Shown piece after piece: positions 2,494-32,201 of a stretch of DNA of 33,995 nt. The stretch comes from Flavobacteria bacterium MS024-2A. Its GTDB lineage: Bacteria > Bacteroidota > Bacteroidia > Flavobacteriales > Flavobacteriaceae. Positions within the stretch are counted from its first letter, which is position 1. The number at the start of each line of letters is the position of its first letter. The stretch lies in the NCBI GenBank assembly GCA_905181895.1, contig CAJJAB010000113.1, positions 1 through 33,995 on the forward strand. The letters are read 5' to 3'. The position numbers and the translations under genes are program-made. The notes below the pieces were generated by a model, which saw only the letters and a program-made list of their open reading frames with translations, ran no database searches and was not told the origin of the DNA.

Positions 2494-5400
2494 TTGATTG
2501 AGAATAAACGATATGTAGTTTATAAATATTCCCAAGCTTTAATTCATATATTATTTTGGATATTATCTTCTTTTGGGGTCATTTTATCTCAAGAAAAAGC
2601 TCATGTTGGCGAAATTGCACTCCCAGATTCAAGTAGTATTTCTAAAAAATACACTTACGATTCTGAATCAGATCGGTATATATTTTCTAAAGAAATAGGA
2701 GGTTATTTAATTGGAATTCCCCTAATACTATCTATTAAAGAATATGAGGCTTTAGTCCTAAAAGAACAAATGCAAAATTATTTTAAAAAAAAGGTTCAAG
2801 CTTTAAGTGGTAAAGGTTTAGATATAGATGATACCCAGAAAAATTTACTTCCTGAATTATATGTAAACAACAAATTCTTTCAATCTATTTTTGGTAGTAA
2901 TGCTATTGATATATCGCCGCAAGGATCTATTGGGATTGACTTGGGATATCGTTATCAAAGAAATGATAATCCCATAACTTCTCCTGTAAATAGAAGATCT
3001 CCTGGATTTGAATTTGATCAACGGATTAGTTTAAGTTTATTGGGAAAAATTGGTGAGCGCCTTCAAATAACTGCTAATTACGACACTGAATCTACTTTCG
3101 ATTTTCAAAATCTTATTAAAATTGAATTTAACCCTCCCCAATTATCCGAATTAAAAGATGTAATCCCGGGTAAGATTGGTTCTAGAATCAATGATATTCA
3201 AGGAAAAGTAGGTAATATTAATTCTAAGATTGAAAATGTTAATGCCAAAGTTGAAGACATTCAAAATAAAATTGGAGAAGTTAAAAACACACTTAAACAA
3301 GCACGGCAAAGAATAGATCAATTAAAAAATAATATAAATCAACTCCCTAATAGTTCAGAAGAAGTTGGAAATAGAGTTGCGGACTATTTGAAGGGAAAAG
3401 TAACTGAGGATGCAATCATACAAAATATTGATATTGGAAATATTAGTTTGCCTTTAAATAGTAATTTAATTCAAGGAGCTCAAAGTCTTTTTGGAGTTCG
3501 AGCAGATTTAAAATTTGGGAACACAACCATTTCTGGAATTTTCTCTGAACAGCGTTCCCAATCTCAAAATATCACTTCACAGGGAGGAGGTAAATTAGAG
3601 GAATTCAGTTTATTTGCTTTAGACTATGAAGAAGATCGGCATTATTTTTTGAGTCAATATTTTAGAGATAACTATGATGCTTTTTTAGATACCTATCCTT
3701 ACATAAATTCACCTGTTCAAATTACTCGAATTGAAGTTTGGGTTACAAATAGAGGCTATCAAACCAATAATGTTAGAAATATTATTGCACTTCAAGATTT
3801 AGGAGAAGCCAATGCTGAAAACACAAAACTTGATGAGAGAGTTCCTGATTTTTTCACGGTATTAAACCCTGAATTTCCACCCAGTAATGATATTAACAGA
3901 TTGGATCCTGATGGGATAGGTTTTGGAGGAATTTTAACTAATGCCATTAGAGACATAGCAACGGTTAAAAATGGATTTGGATCTATTAAAACTACCGAAG
4001 GTTATGATTATGCTGTTTTGGAAAGCGCTCGAAAACTAAGTGATCAAGAGTATACTTTTCATCCTCAATTAGGTTACATTTCATTAAATCAACGCTTGAG
4101 TAACGATGAAATTCTGGGAGTATCTTTTCAATATACTTATTTAGGAAAAGTTTATCAAGTTGGTGAGTTCGCAAATGGAGATGTACCCGGTACTTCTTTA
4201 ATTCAGTCTAACGCTTCCCAACAAGCGCAACTAGCACCTGTAGTTCAAACCAATAATTTAGTGATCAAAATGCTTAAAAGTAGCTTGACCGACATACGTC
4301 AACCAATTTGGAACTTGATGATGAAAAACATATACAATACAGGAGCTTTTCAGCTTTCCCAAGAAGACTTTAAATTAAATATACTTTACACAGATCCTTC
4401 TCCAATTAATTACATGACTCCAGTAGATCCATCTATTTGGCCCGAAAACCTTAGCAAAGAAGTTTTATTAAACACAATGGATTTAGACCGTTTAAATGCC
4501 TATCAAGATTTAGTTCCTCAAGGAGACGGTTTTTTTGATTTTATTCCTGGGATTACAATTGACCCTCGTTATGGGCGAATTATATTTCCTAAAGCTGAGC
4601 CTTTTGGAGAATTTTTATTTAACCTATTAGATAATCCAGAATCGGGTAAAGAAGATTACGATATTGAGAGCACTTTTAATAAAAATCAAAAAAAATACGT
4701 TTTTAAAGAGTTGTATTCTTCAACAAAAGCCGCGGCACTCGAGTTTACCGAAAAAAATAAATTTCAATTAAAAGGACGTTATAAATCAGAAGGTGGAGAT
4801 GGCATCAATATTGGTGCTTTTAACGTACCTAGAGGTTCGGTTATAGTTACAGCAGGAGGGAGAGTTCTGCAAGAAGGTCTTGATTATACTGTAAATTATG
4901 AAATAGGACGTGTTAAAATTTTAGATGAGGGATTGAAAGCGTCAAATATTCCAATTGATATTTCTGTGGAAAATAACTCTTTTTTCAATCAACAAAATAA
5001 ACGTTTTTCAGGAATCAATCTCAATCATCGAATTACAGATAAAATTAATGTGGGAGGAACGCTTCTAAACCTGAGTGAAAATCCTCTAACCCAAAAAGCA
5101 AATTATGGAACTGAACCCGTAAATAATACGATGATGGGCTTCAATACCAATTTTTCTACTGAAATTCCATTTTTAACTCGTTTGGTTAACAAATATCCAA
5201 CTATCAAAACGAATATTCCTTCTCAAATTTCTTTTCGAGCAGAAGTGGCAAGTTTGGCAGCTCAAGATCCAAGAAATACCCAATTAAATGGTGAAACAAA
5301 TGTATATATAGATGATTTTGAAGGTGCACAAACTAATATTGATATTAAAGGCTATAATGCTTGGAATCTTTCAAGTGTCCCTGTAAATGATGTTATAGGA

Positions 5401-8400
5401 GCAAATGACGACGGCTTAAAAAGCGGATATGGAAGATCTAAACTAGCTTGGTATTCTATTGATCAAATCTTTTACTTTAGACCTCCGAACGGAATAAATA
5501 ATAACGATATATCTTCAAACGAAACACGGCGAATTTTCATTAATGAATTGTTTCCAGAACAAGATATTGTTCAAGGGACGCCAAGTACACTCCCAACATT
5601 TGATTTAGCCTATTATCCAGAAGAAAAAGGGCCATATAATAATTCTCCAAATGACCAATTTGGTAATAAAATAAAAAAGAATTGGGCGGGCATAATGCGC
5701 TCTTTAAATGCTACAAACTTTGAACAATCAAATGTAGAATTCATCGAATTTTGGTTATTGGATACATTTTCAAATAATGAATCTTCTTCAGACGATCTAG
5801 GTGAGTTAGTTTTTCATTTAGGGAATATATCGGAGGATGTTTTAAGAGATGGAAGAAAACAATTTGAAAATGGATTGCCTGGATCAACTGAACTTTCTCC
5901 AACTTATCAAACAGATTGGGGAAAAGTTCCTGCAAATCAATCGTTAGTATATGCTTTTAATTCTGTAGCAGAAGACCGTGATTTACAAGATGTTGGATTG
6001 GATGGATTAAATGATATTGAGGAACAATACATTTTCACTAATGGACCTATCAAAGATCCGGCTGGGGACAACTATCAATATTTTTTACAAGCAGAAGGTG
6101 GAATTCTAAATCGATATAAAAATTACAATGGATTGGAGGGGAATACTCCTGTTGCTTTTAGTGATTCTGATCGAGGTAATACTACAGAGCCAGATGCAGA
6201 AGATATTAACAGAGATCAAAGTATGAATACGATTGATAGTTATTTTGAATATCGTGTTCCTATTGCTAAAAATATGCAAGTAGGAAATCATCCATTTGTT
6301 ACTGATGTTCGAGAAAACATAAAAGTTAACGCACCTAATGGAGATGAATTAGTAGTTCGTTGGATACAGTTTAAAGTTCCAATTCAAAAAGATTATTATG
6401 AAAACACTTCATTCAACAATTATTTTAAGTCAGTAAACGCAATTAATGATTTAAGATCGATTCGATTTATGCGTATGGTTTTAAGTGGTTTTGAAGAAGA
6501 AGTTACCTTTCGGTTTGGCACTTTGGATTTAGTAAGGGGAGATTGGCGAAGATATAATAAAGCCTTAAATGAAGAGGTTTTAGTAAATGAAAATACTACC
6601 GTAGACATCAGTACAGTAAATATTTTGGAAAATGAAAATAGAATTCCTATTAATTATGTTTTACCTCCAGAGATAAGAAGAGAACAGATAAATAATAATA
6701 ATACAATAATAAGACAAAACGAACAGTCACTGGCATTTAGAGTTTGTGATCTACAGCCTTTGGATTCAAGAGGAATTTACAAAAACTTGAATCTTGACAT
6801 GCGTCAGTACAGTAAGTTGCGTATGTTTTTACATGCCGAGTCTCTTCCAGGTAATGAGCCGCTTCCAGGGGAGGGTTCGGAAGATGAATTTGATAAAAGA
6901 TTGGTTGCTTTTATTCGTTTGGGGACTGATTATCAAGATAATTATTATCAAATAGAGATCCCATTAAAACCCACTGAATATTCATCTGAGATTATAAATA
7001 GACTCACTGCAGAGGAGGTTTGGAACCCTGATTCAAATTCTCTGGAAGTTCCCATAGATCTTTTAGCTAAACTTAAAACGCTTGCAATTCAACAATTAGG
7101 ATTAGGAGAAACAATATATTTTGATGAAGAACTAAACTCAATAGAGGAATTTACGCCGATCAGCAGTCTACCTGGGGATAAAAAATATAAATTTTCAATT
7201 CGAGGAAATCCTTCTTTAGGAGACATAAGAACCTTGATGATAGGAGTTAAAAATCCCTCAACTAATTTAGGAGAATCTTTATGTGGTGAGGTTTGGTTTA
7301 ATGAATTAAGGATTTCTGGAATAGACAGTCAAGGGGGTTGGGCTGCGATTGGCGCTTTAGATGCTAATTTAGCTGATTTTGCTTCTTTTTCTGCATCAGG
7401 AAGGTATTCTACGATTGGTTTTGGGAGTATAGATCAGACTCCTAATCAAAGAGCAAGAGAGGATTTGCTGCAATATGATATAGTTTCTAATATTAACCTT
7501 GAACAACTTACCCCTTCCAAATGGGGGCTTCAAATACCTTTGAGTTTTGCAAGTGGAAAAACAATGATTACTCCAGAATATGATCCTTTTTATCAAGATT
7601 TAAAACTAGTTGATCGACTGGATACGGCAGAAAGAAAATCTCAACGTGATTCAATAAGAGATCAAGCAATTAACTATACAAGTAGAAAGAGTGTTAGTTT
7701 AATTGGAGTAAGAAAAAATAATTTAGGTGAAGATAAAAACTATTTTTACAGTCCAGAAAATTTTGATTTTTCCTATGCCTATAATGAATTGTTGCACAGA
7801 GATTATGAAATAGAAACTCAAGAAGAAATTAATTTATTATTGAGCGCTAATTATGGACATTCTTTCATTTCTAATCCCATTGAACCTTTTAAAAAAGCAA
7901 CTTTTTTTAATCGTAAAAAATACTGGCAGTGGCTTCAGAAAATTAACTTTAATCTTTTACCAAGCTCCCTCGAGGCATCAGCAAATATTAATAGAATTTT
8001 AAATAATCAGAAGTTTAGACAGGTATATTTAGAAGGAGTAGATGCGACGCTACAGCGGAGTTTACCCAATTTACAACAAAGAAACTTTTTGTTTGATTTT
8101 AACTATGCCTTTACTCATAATTTAAGTCGTTCGTTACGTGTAAATTTCAATGCAAATACAAGCAGTATAATTAGGCAACTGGATGCGATTGACTCTGGTT
8201 TGGTAAATCCTTTTATACCTTCAAAACAAATCTTATGGCAGGGATTACTCAATACAGGAGAACCAAATAATCATATTCAGTCCCTGGCTGTAAATTATAA
8301 ATTACCTTTTCAGCATCTCCCTTTTTTAAGTTTTATTGATGCAACTTACAATTATACCGGAAACTTCAATTGGATTAGAGGCTCCGAAGCACTATCACAG

Positions 8401-9945
8401 GTAAAAAATCAGGATGGTATCCCCCTAGGAATAGTAAATACTATTCAAAATAATAACACAAAAACCTTAACCGGAGCATTATCATTTGCAAAATTATATT
8501 CCATTTTGGGTTTAAAATCCAAGAGAAGTTCTTTCACACAAAAAATAAGAAATAGTATTCCTAAAGATTCTGTACCAAAATCAAAGAGTTCTTTCTTAAA
8601 GAAGGGCTTGACCCAATTAGTTGATGTATTGACAGCTGTAAAAAGAGTACAAGCCAGTTATAATGAAAACAATGGTTCTGTATTACCCGGTTATTTACCC
8701 TCAGTCGGTTTTGCAGGTGGGATGCGACCAACCTTGGGCTATACTTTTGGTAGTCAGGCAGATATCCGATATGAAGCAGCACGTCAAGGATGGTTAACAA
8801 GGTATCCAAATTTTAATCAACCTTTCACAAGTTTACATAGTAGCAAGTTTAAAGCATCTGCTCAGGTTGTTCCTCTAAAAAATTTAATTATTGATTTTAA
8901 TGCTGAGCGTGATTATTCCGAAAATAAACTTGAAAATTTTAAAGTAGAAGATCAAAATTATCTCCCTCAAAACTCAAGTTTGTTTGGTAATTTTGGAATG
9001 TCAACAATTTTGATTCAAACGACTTTTAGTAATTCTCGCGGTTCGTCAAGTTCAAATTTTGAAAAATTTAGGGATAACAGAAAAGTTATCGCAAACCGCT
9101 TGGCACAGAATAGTAATTATAGAAATCTAGTGAAGGATAATGATGGCTATCCCCTTGGCTTCGGGAGAAATCAACAAGGTGTTTTGATTCATTCGTTTCT
9201 AGCAGCATATTCGGGTTCTAGCCCAAAAAAAGTTTCGTTAAATCCAATTAGAAGTAACCCTTTACCCAATTGGAATATAAAATTCACAGGTCTTTCAGAA
9301 ATAAAAGCATTATCAAAAATCTTCAAACGTTTTTCAATAAATCATGCTTATCGAGCAAGTTATACCTTGACTAACTTTCAAAATAATTTTGATTTTAATA
9401 CTAATATTCCCGATCAATTAGATAAGTTAGGTAATTTAATTCCACAAAAATTATATTCTAATGTAAATTTAGTTGAGCAATTTAATCCCTTAGTTCGCAT
9501 TGATATTGAGATGAATAATTCATTTAAATTTTTAGCTGAGCTAAGAAAAGAAAGAGCCATCTCGTTAAGTCTTGACAATAATTTAATCACAGAATCAGCT
9601 GGTGATGAATACGTTATAGGAATGGGGTATAGAGTAAAAGATTTACGATTTAGAACTAGTTTTGGAGGCCGCCGGATTATTTTGAAGGGAGATTTAAACA
9701 TAAAAGCAGATGTCTCCTATCGAGATAATATTACTGTTTTAAGAAACTTGGAATACGATAACAACCAGGTGACTGCTGGACAACGTTTGGTAGCTATCAA
9801 ACTAACGGCCGACTACGCATTGACAAAAAATTTGATTGCCCAATTTTTTTATGATCATAATTTCTCAGAATTCGCAATTTCAACTGCCTTTCCGCAAACT
9901 AGTATTCGTTCAGGTTTTACAATTCGTTATAACTTTGGAAATTAA
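2494..9945 (+). CDS. sprA: Type IX secretion outer membrane translocon / gliding motility protein SprA (Sov)
   Basis: Giant outer membrane barrel through which type IX secretion substrates cross the outer membrane; in flavobacteria it is also needed for gliding (family knowledge). At 2483 residues it is close to known SprA proteins of about 2400. A signal peptide is visible (hydrophobic residues about 15-31, ending SQ at 32-33). Recognisable family stretches include IGIDLGYRYQRNDNP, LFGVRADLKFGNTT, NVEFIEFWLLDTF and AGQRLVAIKLTADY. The alternating-residue C-terminus ends GFTIRYNFGN, a typical barrel closing strand. Residues about 226-290 form a strongly heptad-like coiled coil. The only plausible start is the TTG at 2494, 7 bases after ruvA; the next in-frame ATG falls beyond the signal peptide. 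The gene fills about a fifth of the window and is intact. Confidence 0.95.
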   Translation: MIENKRYVVYKYSQALIHILFWILSSFGVILSQEKAHVGEIALPDSSSISKKYTYDSESDRYIFSKEIGGYLIGIPLILSIKEYEALVLKEQMQNYFKKKVQALSGKGLDIDDTQKNLLPELYVNNKFFQSIFGSNAIDISPQGSIGIDLGYRYQRNDNPITSPVNRRSPGFEFDQRISLSLLGKIGERLQITANYDTESTFDFQNLIKIEFNPPQLSELKDVIPGKIGSRINDIQGKVGNINSKIENVNAKVEDIQNKIGEVKNTLKQARQRIDQLKNNINQLPNSSEEVGNRVADYLKGKVTEDAIIQNIDIGNISLPLNSNLIQGAQSLFGVRADLKFGNTTISGIFSEQRSQSQNITSQGGGKLEEFSLFALDYEEDRHYFLSQYFRDNYDAFLDTYPYINSPVQITRIEVWVTNRGYQTNNVRNIIALQDLGEANAENTKLDERVPDFFTVLNPEFPPSNDINRLDPDGIGFGGILTNAIRDIATVKNGFGSIKTTEGYDYAVLESARKLSDQEYTFHPQLGYISLNQRLSNDEILGVSFQYTYLGKVYQVGEFANGDVPGTSLIQSNASQQAQLAPVVQTNNLVIKMLKSSLTDIRQPIWNLMMKNIYNTGAFQLSQEDFKLNILYTDPSPINYMTPVDPSIWPENLSKEVLLNTMDLDRLNAYQDLVPQGDGFFDFIPGITIDPRYGRIIFPKAEPFGEFLFNLLDNPESGKEDYDIESTFNKNQKKYVFKELYSSTKAAALEFTEKNKFQLKGRYKSEGGDGINIGAFNVPRGSVIVTAGGRVLQEGLDYTVNYEIGRVKILDEGLKASNIPIDISVENNSFFNQQNKRFSGINLNHRITDKINVGGTLLNLSENPLTQKANYGTEPVNNTMMGFNTNFSTEIPFLTRLVNKYPTIKTNIPSQISFRAEVASLAAQDPRNTQLNGETNVYIDDFEGAQTNIDIKGYNAWNLSSVPVNDVIGANDDGLKSGYGRSKLAWYSIDQIFYFRPPNGINNNDISSNETRRIFINELFPEQDIVQGTPSTLPTFDLAYYPEEKGPYNNSPNDQFGNKIKKNWAGIMRSLNATNFEQSNVEFIEFWLLDTFSNNESSSDDLGELVFHLGNISEDVLRDGRKQFENGLPGSTELSPTYQTDWGKVPANQSLVYAFNSVAEDRDLQDVGLDGLNDIEEQYIFTNGPIKDPAGDNYQYFLQAEGGILNRYKNYNGLEGNTPVAFSDSDRGNTTEPDAEDINRDQSMNTIDSYFEYRVPIAKNMQVGNHPFVTDVRENIKVNAPNGDELVVRWIQFKVPIQKDYYENTSFNNYFKSVNAINDLRSIRFMRMVLSGFEEEVTFRFGTLDLVRGDWRRYNKALNEEVLVNENTTVDISTVNILENENRIPINYVLPPEIRREQINNNNTIIRQNEQSLAFRVCDLQPLDSRGIYKNLNLDMRQYSKLRMFLHAESLPGNEPLPGEGSEDEFDKRLVAFIRLGTDYQDNYYQIEIPLKPTEYSSEIINRLTAEEVWNPDSNSLEVPIDLLAKLKTLAIQQLGLGETIYFDEELNSIEEFTPISSLPGDKKYKFSIRGNPSLGDIRTLMIGVKNPSTNLGESLCGEVWFNELRISGIDSQGGWAAIGALDANLADFASFSASGRYSTIGFGSIDQTPNQRAREDLLQYDIVSNINLEQLTPSKWGLQIPLSFASGKTMITPEYDPFYQDLKLVDRLDTAERKSQRDSIRDQAINYTSRKSVSLIGVRKNNLGEDKNYFYSPENFDFSYAYNELLHRDYEIETQEEINLLLSANYGHSFISNPIEPFKKATFFNRKKYWQWLQKINFNLLPSSLEASANINRILNNQKFRQVYLEGVDATLQRSLPNLQQRNFLFDFNYAFTHNLSRSLRVNFNANTSSIIRQLDAIDSGLVNPFIPSKQILWQGLLNTGEPNNHIQSLAVNYKLPFQHLPFLSFIDATYNYTGNFNWIRGSEALSQVKNQDGIPLGIVNTIQNNNTKTLTGALSFAKLYSILGLKSKRSSFTQKIRNSIPKDSVPKSKSSFLKKGLTQLVDVLTAVKRVQASYNENNGSVLPGYLPSVGFAGGMRPTLGYTFGSQADIRYEAARQGWLTRYPNFNQPFTSLHSSKFKASAQVVPLKNLIIDFNAERDYSENKLENFKVEDQNYLPQNSSLFGNFGMSTILIQTTFSNSRGSSSSNFEKFRDNRKVIANRLAQNSNYRNLVKDNDGYPLGFGRNQQGVLIHSFLAAYSGSSPKKVSLNPIRSNPLPNWNIKFTGLSEIKALSKIFKRFSINHAYRASYTLTNFQNNFDFNTNIPDQLDKLGNLIPQKLYSNVNLVEQFNPLVRIDIEMNNSFKFLAELRKERAISLSLDNNLITESAGDEYVIGMGYRVKDLRFRTSFGGRRIILKGDLNIKADVSYRDNITVLRNLEYDNNQVTAGQRLVAIKLTADYALTKNLIAQFFYDHNFSEFAISTAFPQTSIRSGFTIRYNFGN

Positions 9946-10382: not shown

Positions 10383-10740
10383 TTATTTTTTTAAGGTATT
10401 TGCAGTATTAGCTACCTTCAGTGTGATTTATTTGAGCCTTAAACCTCCTGGTCAACAAATGACTTACTGGACTTTTCTAAATTTTAGACAAGATTTAGTT
10501 TTTCATTTTACCTGTTATTTTTTTCTTACAGGAATATATTTTGCAGCATTTTTTAAAAATACATCCGTTTTTAAAAAAGCCTTTTTTTTATCTTTTTCCG
10601 TCGGTTTTATTTTGGAGTTCATTCAGCTCATTTCAATATTCAATCGAACCTTTGACTTTAATGATTTATTAGCAAATTTAGCAGGGTCATGTCTTGGAAT
10701 TTTACTAATTCGACTTTTCTTTTCTTATTCTGTAAAGTAA
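10348..10740 (+). CDS. VanZ-like integral membrane protein
   Basis: Small membrane protein of 130 residues with about four hydrophobic helices (roughly residues 14-30, 50-68, 75-95 and 108-126). It carries VanZ-family hallmarks: LSLKPP after the first helix, [12 protein letters not shown] in the second, and [27 protein letters not shown] toward the end (two adjoining motifs). VanZ is named after a teicoplanin-resistance gene, but most family members have no known role and a resistance function should not be assumed. The ATG at 10348 overlaps gcvH by 35 bases in another frame. I see no alternative ATG, GTG or TTG in the next 20 codons that would keep the first helix whole, so this start is preferred. 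Confidence 0.82.
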
Positions 10741-11503: not shown

Positions 11504-11527
11504 TATTACATCTTTATTAAGTACCCG

Positions 11528-11556
11528 AAAACCAGCGATAAGCTGGTTTTTGTCTT
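11528..11556 (+). terminator. Rho-independent terminator after tonB-like gene
   Basis: A perfect 9-base-pair stem (AAAACCAGC at 11528-11536 with GCTGGTTTT at 11542-11550) and a 5-base loop, followed by a T-rich stretch (TGTCTTTT). It sits 24 bases after the stop codon. Confidence 0.85.
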
Positions 11557-11773
11557 TTATAAGACAACTTATATATTGATAGAAGATCTAATTTGAATTA
11601 AACTTTAGAATGCTAAAATTCAATCAAAATGCATTGTTTCCAAATTATCAAGTATAATCTCTAGTAACCAAACTATAATTTACTTTCGTATAACCTGTAT
11701 TGTCTGCTTTTCAATCAAGAATATATTGATTAATTAAATAGTAAAATATTTTATATCTAAATAGGTGATTTGA

Positions 11774-29823: not shown

Positions 29824-30543
29824 TTATGTTGTGAGTTGTTTACTCGTTTTTCCAAATCGTCTTTCTCTTTTACAGAAGTTTATTAATGCTTTGTTTAGAT
29901 CTTTTTTTGAAAAATCAGGCCATAGTGTTTTAGTAAAGTATAGTTCAGCATAAGCTATTTGCCATAACAAAAAATTACTTATTCTTTTTTCACCGCTGGT
30001 TCGTATTAGTAAATCTACAGGTGGTAAATAACGAGAGTAAAGATGCTCATTAATCGTGGACTGGTCAACTTTTTCAGGGGAAATTATACTATTTTTAACT
30101 TTATTAGCAATCATTTTTATTGCTTGTGTGAGTTCTTCTTTTGCCCCATAGTTAAGTGCGAGAGTTAGGGTCAGACCTGAATTTTTTTCTGTTTTCTTCA
30201 TAACATAAATTAATTCCTCTTTCACTAAATTTGGAAGTCCATCAAGATCACCGATAGCCTTTAATTTAATGTTATTTTTGATCAATCGATCAAATTCTTT
30301 TTTAAGGGTGCTGACAAGAAGCCGCATTAAAACGCCAACTTCATCTTCTGGACGACTCCAATTTTCAGTTGAAAAGGTGAAAAGCGTCAAATACTTTATT
30401 TCTTTAAGAGCAGCCTCTTCAATCACCCCTCTGACTGCCGAAGCACCTTTTTTATGACCCAATACTCGCTGTTTACCTCTTTGGGTTGCCCAACGACCGT
30501 TTCCATCCATTATAATAGCGACATGTTGCGGTAATTTGTTCAT
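29824..30543 (-). CDS. uppS: Undecaprenyl diphosphate synthase (di-trans,poly-cis isoprenyl transferase)
   Basis: Makes the C55 lipid carrier for peptidoglycan and O-antigen units by adding isopentenyl groups in cis. At 239 residues it is the normal length. The catalytic Asp13 lies in IIMDGNGRWATQRG (residues 10-23), and FSTENWSRP and LIRTSGEKRISNFLLWQ are the other two conserved regions. WQIAYAELYFTKTLWPDF closes the active site. The gene abuts porG (stop at 30544-30546, ATG at 30541-30543) with no gap, and ends 1 base before the bamA start. Confidence 0.96.
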   Translation of the reverse strand: MNKLPQHVAIIMDGNGRWATQRGKQRVLGHKKGASAVRGVIEEAALKEIKYLTLFTFSTENWSRPEDEVGVLMRLLVSTLKKEFDRLIKNNIKLKAIGDLDGLPNLVKEELIYVMKKTEKNSGLTLTLALNYGAKEELTQAIKMIANKVKNSIISPEKVDQSTINEHLYSRYLPPVDLLIRTSGEKRISNFLLWQIAYAELYFTKTLWPDFSKKDLNKALINFCKRERRFGKTSKQLTT

Positions 30544-31266
30544 TTATTCTTTGCAATAACATGGAAGATCGCCAAAGGTAAATGAAATTGTCAAACCCGT
30601 AAAAATATACCAGTCATTATTCGTAATATTTCCAAATTTATATTCTTGAATATCTTCAAATTCATTTCCTGGATTACTTCCATCTAAATTATCAGTTAAT
30701 GTATAACGAGCTCCCATCTCAAAGGCAAGAACAAAAATTGGGTTGGGATTTATCTTAAAACCGAAAATTAAAGGAAAGGCTATATTTTCATCAGTACCAT
30801 AATTATTATAAGTAGCAGGAGTATTAGACCCATTTGGAGTAAGGTAAAATTGGTTGTATCTGAAATAACTAACTCCATAAAAAATGTAGGGAGTAAAACT
30901 TAAAGTCTCATCATGTAAATTAAAAGCAAAAAAATTTATTTCTATACCTACCATTGCTTCTTGGATGCTATTATCGAGTTTATATGATCTTCGAAAGCGA
31001 TTTAGGTCATTATTTCTGTATTCATTTTCCACTAATTTTGTAAAAGTAAATCCAGCTCGAAGAGAGTAACGGTCAGTAGCATTCCATTTATAAGTCAATC
31101 CAAGTGCTGGTGAATTTGGATTTATATATTTATCAGTCCCTATGTCTCCAATATAGTTGCTAGCTCCAATAAAAGCTCCTACTTCATGATATTGAGCTGT
31201 TAAAGCTATCACAAAAAAATAGAAAAAAATAGTAAAGAATAATTTGTGTAATTTAAACTTAATCAT
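30544..31266 (-). CDS. porG: PorG-like outer membrane barrel (DUF6089 family), type IX secretion
   Basis: 240 residues with a signal peptide (about residues 1-25, ending LTAQ) and alternating strands typical of a small outer membrane barrel. Recognisable starts are EVGAFIGASNYIGDIG and SLRAGFTFTKLVE, with a late strand WYIFTGLTISFTFG. In Porphyromonas gingivalis the PorG protein anchors the PorK/PorN ring of the type IX system and its gene precedes uppS-bamA-ompH-ompH; the same order here supports the name (knowledge plus context). Two cysteines sit near the C-terminus (LPCYCKE). An unusual 40-base hairpin lies 1 base upstream of the ATG (31264-31266). If not PorG, it is a general DUF6089 barrel. 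Confidence 0.8.
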   Translation of the reverse strand: MIKFKLHKLFFTIFFYFFVIALTAQYHEVGAFIGASNYIGDIGTDKYINPNSPALGLTYKWNATDRYSLRAGFTFTKLVENEYRNNDLNRFRRSYKLDNSIQEAMVGIEINFFAFNLHDETLSFTPYIFYGVSYFRYNQFYLTPNGSNTPATYNNYGTDENIAFPLIFGFKINPNPIFVLAFEMGARYTLTDNLDGSNPGNEFEDIQEYKFGNITNNDWYIFTGLTISFTFGDLPCYCKE

Positions 31267-31267
31267 G

Positions 31268-31307
31268 AATGTTTATACGCAAGGATTACTTGCATTATAT
31301 AAACATT
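31268..31307 (-). promoter_or_regulatory. Long imperfect hairpin in the porG leader
   Basis: Outer arms AATGTTTATA (31268-31277) and TATAAACATT (31298-31307) are perfect 10-base complements. Inner arms GCAAG (31279-31283) and CTTGC (31289-31293) are perfect 5-base complements with a 5-base loop. The only unpaired bases in between are one C on one side and ATTA on the other. The structure ends 1 base before the porG ATG and starts 12 bases after the nadK stop. No T-run follows in the porG direction, so it is not a terminator for nadK. Confidence 0.7.
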
Positions 31308-31319
31308 AAAACGCCTTTT

Positions 31320-32201
31320 TTATTGTGTATTTCTTGAGTCTTGTCCCCAAAAAAGTTTTTCTCGAAGTGTATCGAAAAAAAAGGCTCCTTCTAATTGAAC
31401 GGTTTGAATTGAAAAAGCAGCTTTTTTCAAATAAATATCATTACCATTTTCAATGGTCAAAATTCTTGAGTCTAAAGACAACAAGTGGTTTTTATCTCTT
31501 CCGTCAACAGATATTTTAATAGCTGTAGAATCAGTTACAATCAGTGGCCGCATATTAATATTATGAGGGGCTATTGGATTTAAAATCCAACAAGCGGAAT
31601 CAGGAGACACTATAGGACCTCCGTTACTTAATGAATATCCCGTCGAACCTGTTGGGGTAGAAACGATAAGGCCATCAGCCCAATAGGTGGTAAGATGTTT
31701 TCCATCCAATTCAGCTTTAATACTCAACATGGATGTAGTATTTTTTCTATTAATACTAACTTCATTAAGAGCAAAACCAATTTTCTCAAGAGCACTAATT
31801 GTATTTTTTGTACTCACTTCAAGCAACGAACGTTTAATGAATGTGTATTTCTTTTTAAAAAACAAATCTAAGCCTTCGGCTAATACATCACGATGGAGTG
31901 AGGTCAAAAAGCCTAGTCTTCCGGTGTTGATTCCAAAAATTGGAATTTTAGAATCACGAACTATTGTTATGGATCTCAAAAGAGTCCCATCTCCACCAAT
32001 TGAAAAGAGAAAATCAATATTAGAAGCAAGGATTTCATCATCACTGAAGTAAGAAATACCCTCTTGCTCAGCACTCATATATTTCTTGAGTCTATTAACT
32101 AACGATATATTATGTTGATGGGATTCCAAATAGGCAATTACTGTTCTTATATAAGTCAGTGTTTCGGGAGAAAAAAATGCGCTATAGATCGCTATATTCA
32201 T
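31320..32201 (-). CDS. nadK: NAD kinase
   Basis: Phosphorylates NAD to NADP in the cytoplasm. 293 residues from the chosen ATG. GGDGT at residues 69-73 is the catalytic diacylglycerol-kinase-like motif. It is followed by IPIFGINTGRLGFLTSL, the NE motif in FALNEVSINR, and STPTGSTGYSLSNGGPIV, the family's nucleotide site. I start at 32199-32201, giving MNIAIYSAFF as in related proteins. An ATG at 32226-32228 adds nine residues but falls within the -7 box at 32226-32233 and cannot be part of that transcript. It heads the leftward envelope operon. Confidence 0.94.
   Translation of the reverse strand: MNIAIYSAFFSPETLTYIRTVIAYLESHQHNISLVNRLKKYMSAEQEGISYFSDDEILASNIDFLFSIGGDGTLLRSITIVRDSKIPIFGINTGRLGFLTSLHRDVLAEGLDLFFKKKYTFIKRSLLEVSTKNTISALEKIGFALNEVSINRKNTTSMLSIKAELDGKHLTTYWADGLIVSTPTGSTGYSLSNGGPIVSPDSACWILNPIAPHNINMRPLIVTDSTAIKISVDGRDKNHLLSLDSRILTIENGNDIYLKKAAFSIQTVQLEGAFFFDTLREKLFWGQDSRNTQ

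Follow-up and report, generated by a model that had tools for sequence, protein, structure and literature searches.

A predicted bipartite control element before porG in Flavobacteriaceae, with one half folded into a start-codon hairpin in a small lineage

The gap between nadK and porG in Flavobacteriaceae carries what looks like a transcription signal for porG, a bipartite DNA element of the form CAATA(A/T)-N15-GTT, and in the window (the whole stretch of 33,995 nucleotides analysed here) the second half of this element is also the outer 5' arm of a 40-base hairpin that ends just short of the porG start codon. The original prediction described the hairpin and missed that its nadK-proximal arm is half of a family-wide element. 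As judged from the sequences compared, the assignment of a porG control element is well supported, and the full hairpin is a feature of one small lineage; what is conserved across the family is the bipartite DNA signal that gives one of the two arms. For the hairpin we propose a possible RNA-level role; it may equally be little more than a by-product of the element.

The window is one contig of a 1.28 Mb assembly that is 64% complete. On its minus strand, nadK is followed by porG, uppS and then a gene that is putatively BamA-like, judging by size and position (Table 1). Of the comparison set, 35 of the 37 other congeneric genomes hold nadK, and porG adjoins it in nearly all of those. An earlier start for porG is excluded by the in-frame TAA upstream of the annotated ATG, the base at -3 is T rather than the favourable A, and nadK has a promoter-like TACTTTTG box of its own shortly before its ATG. 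A 10-codon open reading frame also runs through the hairpin (31263-31295, minus strand; ATG CAA GTA ATC CTT GCG TAT AAA CAT TCA TGA) and overlaps the porG start through a final ATGA; the closest relatives have GTG or TTG as the first codon of this frame, which is probably there by chance, since the second codon of porG starts with A. Elsewhere in the window, a 2483-residue open reading frame (2494-9945, plus strand) is a putative SprA by its size and neighbourhood, in which case the window would carry two type IX secretion genes. Its strongest short hairpin (11527-11568, -18.3 kcal/mol) lies just downstream of an open reading frame with a proline-rich stretch and looks like a terminator.

Table 1. 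Features of the nadK-porG region, in coordinates of the window
Feature	Position	Strand	Basis
uppS	29824-30543	-	domain/profile search
porG (T9SS PorG, DUF6089)	30544-31266	-	NF052316, 221 bits (cut-off 130); PF19573
porG start codon	31264-31266	-	in-frame TAA 9 nt upstream; signal peptide, then PorG
40-base hairpin	31268-31307	-	sequence; one base short of the porG ATG
Hairpin outer 10-bp stem	31298-31307 x 31268-31277	-	perfect pairing
Hairpin inner 5-bp stem	31289-31293 x 31279-31283	-	perfect pairing
Inner stem-loop GCAAG-TAATC-CTTGC	31279-31293	-	fold; clade pairing
Conserved bipartite element (ACAATAA, 15 nt, GTTTATA)	31298-31326	-	conserved register and spacing
CAATAA half-site (last Gln codon and stop of nadK)	31320-31325	-	27/27 identical
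GTT half-site core, 15 nt after CAATAA	31302-31304	-	27/27 in genus
nadK (NAD kinase)	31320-32201	-	NF002521, 349 bits

The first half of the element overlaps the nadK stop codon, and its register is invariant in 27 representative gaps of the window's genus and in all 35 gaps read. Across these, the columns spell ACAATAA, 8 bases, TTTT, 2 free bases, (G/T)GTT and mostly WNTA, with no insertions or deletions, and the wobble A of the codon before CAATAA is conserved although the encoded amino acid varies. In 29 congeners, whole-genome pattern searches find a single occurrence of the element in each genome, in every case at porG; profile scanning of 0.83 Mb of congeneric DNA agrees with a single-copy element, and no enrichment at other sites was found that would mark it as a general promoter in the genus. 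A dif-like recombination site was considered because the element is single-copy, and was rejected; in single-contig genomes the element lies anywhere from about 0.18 to 0.95 of the contig, with no clustering opposite the origin, on the assumption that the records start there. The two extra codons that hold the CAATAA half-site also alter the protein, such that NadK ends in RN-(T/V/I)-Q in the window's genus (31320-31328, minus strand) and usually in RN in other Flavobacteriaceae.

The same signal extends through the family. Among 102 Flavobacteriaceae gaps, mostly one per genus and with the window's own included, the exact N15 spacing between CAATA(A/T) and GTT occurs in 95, where shuffling predicts 0.3, and no other spacing occurs more than 4 times. 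The aligned family consensus reads RRCAATAAAW-N6-T-AAAW-N-CTGTTWAWC; a strict version matches 12 times in 24 genomes from other genera, with 11 of these matches at porG, and a family profile trained without the window's genus has its best window match at 31327-31298. In the family the element stands about 98 nt (mostly 93-105) before the porG ATG, even where nadK is up to 172 nt away. As the distance to porG is kept and that to nadK is not, the element belongs to porG at the DNA level, as a predicted promoter or regulator site. One genus, probably Flavobacterium (L137-L142, L148, L149 and L155), has porG gaps of 168-173 nt without CAATAA-N15-GTT; these share TACGA...CGTT and a TTTAAC-N16-CGT nearer the ATG. 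Some family gaps (L250, L262, L277 and others) have a second palindrome-like stretch, for example ACAATTTGnnTCAAATTG, about 35-55 nt after the element start, and perfect palindrome arms of at least 7 occur in 16% of family gaps against 1.5% of shuffles; the inner stem of the window lies in a similar place.

How did the element come to lie so near the start codon in the window? TAnnTTTG is the sigma-A promoter box of Bacteroidota. It stands 15-40 nt (about 25) before the porG ATG in 79 of the 102 family gaps, and among the others several are near-variants of the box or mis-called starts. The 35 congeneric gaps contain none, although elsewhere in genomes of the genus such boxes concentrate 12-36 nt upstream of first genes. 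Read from these sequences, the window's genus has lost the sigma-A region of its porG gap. The gap has shrunk to 47-69 nt, with the element now 53-75 nt from the ATG, and the box loss and shorter gap together have placed the element near the start codon, where its GTT half has become the hairpin's outer 5' arm. A search for E. coli-type promoters gave no excess over shuffles.

The hairpin itself is as originally described, two nested perfect inverted repeats of 10 and 5 base pairs. Read 5' to 3' on the minus strand, its 5' half consists of AATGTTTATA (31307-31298), ATTA, GCAAG (31293-31289) and the loop TAATC, and its 3' half of CTTGC (31283-31279), G and TATAAACATT (31277-31268), followed by base 31267 and then the ATG; its foot is 12 nt from the nadK stop, which ends at 31320. 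The absence of a T-run in the porG direction, likewise part of the original prediction, is borne out; no terminator-like site is present at the hairpin, and an intrinsic terminator is ruled out. A dispersed repeat is ruled out as well, the hairpin being single-copy in its own genome. The folding energy of the 42-mer as RNA is -13.3 kcal/mol (z -6.1), which none of 200 shuffles matched, and the hairpin is still present in the minimum-free-energy and centroid structures when folded in a 120-nt context. Its context z-scores are modest by comparison (-1.3 to -1.8) because the 42-mer was picked for its hairpin. The inner stem alone folds at -5.5 kcal/mol. Perfect 10-bp inverted repeats with a spacer of at most 25 occur at one other place in the 34-kb window, a T/A-rich repeat at 10549-10578, and among 748 leaders from 0.83 Mb of congeneric DNA that of porG is the most stable truly non-coding one, the few that fold better all being mis-called starts inside coding sequence.

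Conservation of the pairing is uneven. The comparison genomes include many metagenome assemblies, in which each open frame was taken to start at its first ATG; related sequences remain non-independent even with cluster representatives used where possible. In the 35 gaps of the genus the stretch right after nadK is conserved and the remainder is variable, and in many lineages that stretch can pair with the bases before the ATG, with partner sequences that differ. Of the 35, the window's 45-nt leader is the most stable. Over 19 gap clusters, the leaders of the genus fold at a mean of -7.06 kcal/mol against a background of -3.43 (p 9e-7), with a shuffle z of -1.41 against -0.12 (p 1e-4), and when 3' arms are swapped among clusters the 5' arms pair less well than with their own (permutation p 0.0009). 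Long stems between the post-nadK arm and the pre-ATG bases occur in L006, in the near relative L007 and, independently, in L022/L024/L025 and L027/L028. The expectation that pairing would be conserved in relatives holds for the inner stem, which is kept in the closest clade (alignment A1, with 96% of cells paired), and in part for the outer stem, which is full in L006, partial in L003 and broken in L004/L005. The compensatory changes also anticipated did not appear above control in the test for a covariation-conserved structured cis-regulatory RNA; clade covariation is at shuffle level (119 of 500 shuffles), and the RNAalifold covariation term is unfavourable (+1.68). The outer stem in L003 and L004 is no better than with randomly placed substitutions (0.34 and 0.27; 0.04 in a third relative). 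Of the several structure tests run, only some were positive. The outer stem is absent from other Flavobacteriaceae genera, where leaders are weakly structured (mean -2.65 kcal/mol), and a MAFFT alignment of gaps over distant genera was uninformative. L123, which belongs to a different family within the order, has a 57-nt nadK-porG gap that can fold over its whole length to the porG ATG (-15.2 kcal/mol) and has a TATATTTG box inside; this is apparently a second, independent case of the same layout.

The reading that we tentatively prefer, at somewhat short of an even chance, is that the element starts porG transcription within the gap and that the full hairpin weakens initiation on RNA read through from nadK. 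The nadK-porG gap would then be a transcription-control region for porG with the hairpin laid over it, and the element would drive or control a start at about 31290-31295. RNA begun there would carry the small inner stem at its 5' end, lack the outer arm and leave the start region open; read-through RNA would contain both outer arms, form the complete hairpin, which reaches to the ATG, and initiate poorly. PorG output would in this way follow its own control element and not nadK transcription. In F. psychrophilum a start specific to the PG0189 (PorG) homologue has been mapped and attributed to an ECF-type motif (PMC9723704), which shows that transcription of porG can begin separately from that of nadK. 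In addition, initiation in F. johnsoniae does not use Shine-Dalgarno pairing and responds to structure around the start codon (PMC6847099); where Bacteroidota ribosomes favour an unstructured start, the hairpin RNA should be at a disadvantage. The original suggestion that the hairpin could limit ribosome entry finds modelled support for read-through RNA in the window, where the cost to open the start region is predicted to be 6.9 kcal/mol against 1.3 for RNA begun at the inferred gap start. This penalty exceeds or nearly exceeds controls in the window, L006 and L022/L025/L028; over the 19 gap clusters of the genus it is not above arm-shuffled controls (p 0.51). A larger claim is that a dedicated, essentially single-copy promoter or operator, CAATAAA-N13-TGTTTA, controls porG and the following genes family-wide through some factor that reads it, and that in one genus, which lost the sigma-A promoter, it has been folded into a start-blocking hairpin such that PorG is made from self-started mRNA alone. 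Taken whole, we regard that as rather unlikely.

Nearly as likely as start control by the hairpin, given that few lineages keep the structure, is that the hairpin is a by-product; this, too, has a substantial chance just under even. Here the element simply gives an AT-rich arm, loss of the sigma-A region moved that arm near the ATG, and the bases before the ATG complement it by chance in this species, so that the DNA element, perhaps with the inner stem, would alone matter. The loss or change of the stem in close relatives L004/L005, the lack of significant clade covariation, a read-through penalty that is not general over the genus and the weak leaders of other genera all fit this account. 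It is less comfortable with the long stems that L022/L024/L025, L027/L028, L006 and L007 also make from the same arm, with the arm-swap permutation and with genus leader structure above background.

The other explanations have much less in their favour. Translational coupling, in which the ribosome ending nadK opens the hairpin or is handed over the looped-out gap to porG, has models reviewed in PMC12548453 and some geometry in its favour, the stem lying 12 nt past the nadK stop and 1 nt short of the ATG, with an arm register to the nadK stop that is fixed in the genus. That register is better explained by the DNA element, as the family element keeps its distance to porG and not to nadK; moreover, structure right after an upstream stop correlates negatively with coupling (PMC12548453), and the nadK stop-to-porG start distance varies over the full 47-69 nt in the genus, all of which makes coupling quite improbable. 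A two-fold DNA operator, as the original prediction allowed, with a dimeric regulator binding the entire inverted repeat, would account for the perfect 10-bp arms in DNA, and a different palindrome-like stretch does occur further downstream in the gaps of other genera, but conservation of one arm only, a varying arm-to-arm distance and relatives that pair partly by G-U, breaking the DNA symmetry, render it slightly less probable still. The least probable account is another RNA-level site, be it a processing site, a 5' stabiliser, a transcription attenuator or an RNA thermometer. The inner stem, kept in the clade, would indeed sit at the 5' end of gap-started RNA; against this, no U-run follows the stem, an Rfam covariance-model search at the hairpin found no relevant family, and the sequence of loop and stem is not conserved past the clade.

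Why might this matter? PorG heads a gene set that spans type IX secretion, undecaprenyl synthesis and outer-membrane assembly, and the deeply conserved element before it offers a way into the question of how Flavobacteriaceae regulate the amounts of these envelope proteins. A narrow literature search, limited to open papers, found no prior report of a bipartite porG control element. Should the hairpin work as we propose, porG would exemplify, in cells whose initiation does not use Shine-Dalgarno pairing, a start site that is usable only in mRNA begun at its own control element.

Among known promoters, the predicted element matches closely neither TAnnTTTG, which most Flavobacteriaceae porG gaps have and the window's genus lacks, nor the published description of the CGT box of SM6. 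The latter, an ECF-type promoter of F. psychrophilum, serves the gene of the PG0189 (PorG) homologue as well as gldN and porU (PMC9723704). SM6 is thus a multi-gene motif with a CGT box, whereas CAATAA-N15-GTT is essentially single-copy, does not recur at several type IX secretion genes and has no conserved C before GTT. An ACAATA-N15-CGTTT match does precede a gldN-family gene in some Flavobacterium; genome-wide in Flavobacterium, however, it does not outnumber the reversed control pattern, and by this loose test the identity of element and SM6 is not supported. For the hairpin, the closest systems are sigG of Bacillus subtilis, in which a large leader hairpin is proposed to block read-through RNA only (PMC5942855), and I-TevI of phage T4 (also e and soc), in which a hairpin blocks read-through RNA only (PMC2988022). 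The sigG stem of more than 20 bp is served by sporulation sigma factors, and the 10 + 5 bp of porG by a putative control element; on the side of likeness, sigG belongs to a cell and follows an upstream operon, and its own transcript retains a small hairpin. T4 I-TevI has a phage late promoter and experimentally studied Shine-Dalgarno sequestration, while porG has no Shine-Dalgarno sequence and is known from sequence alone. In the phage a promoter lies at the hairpin, such that a long upstream RNA hides the ribosome site and a local RNA lacks one arm and stays open; the proposed porG layout would be alike, with the conserved bipartite element overlapping the arm, and in our folds of the longer RNA the corresponding stem joining upstream sequence to the start region is present.
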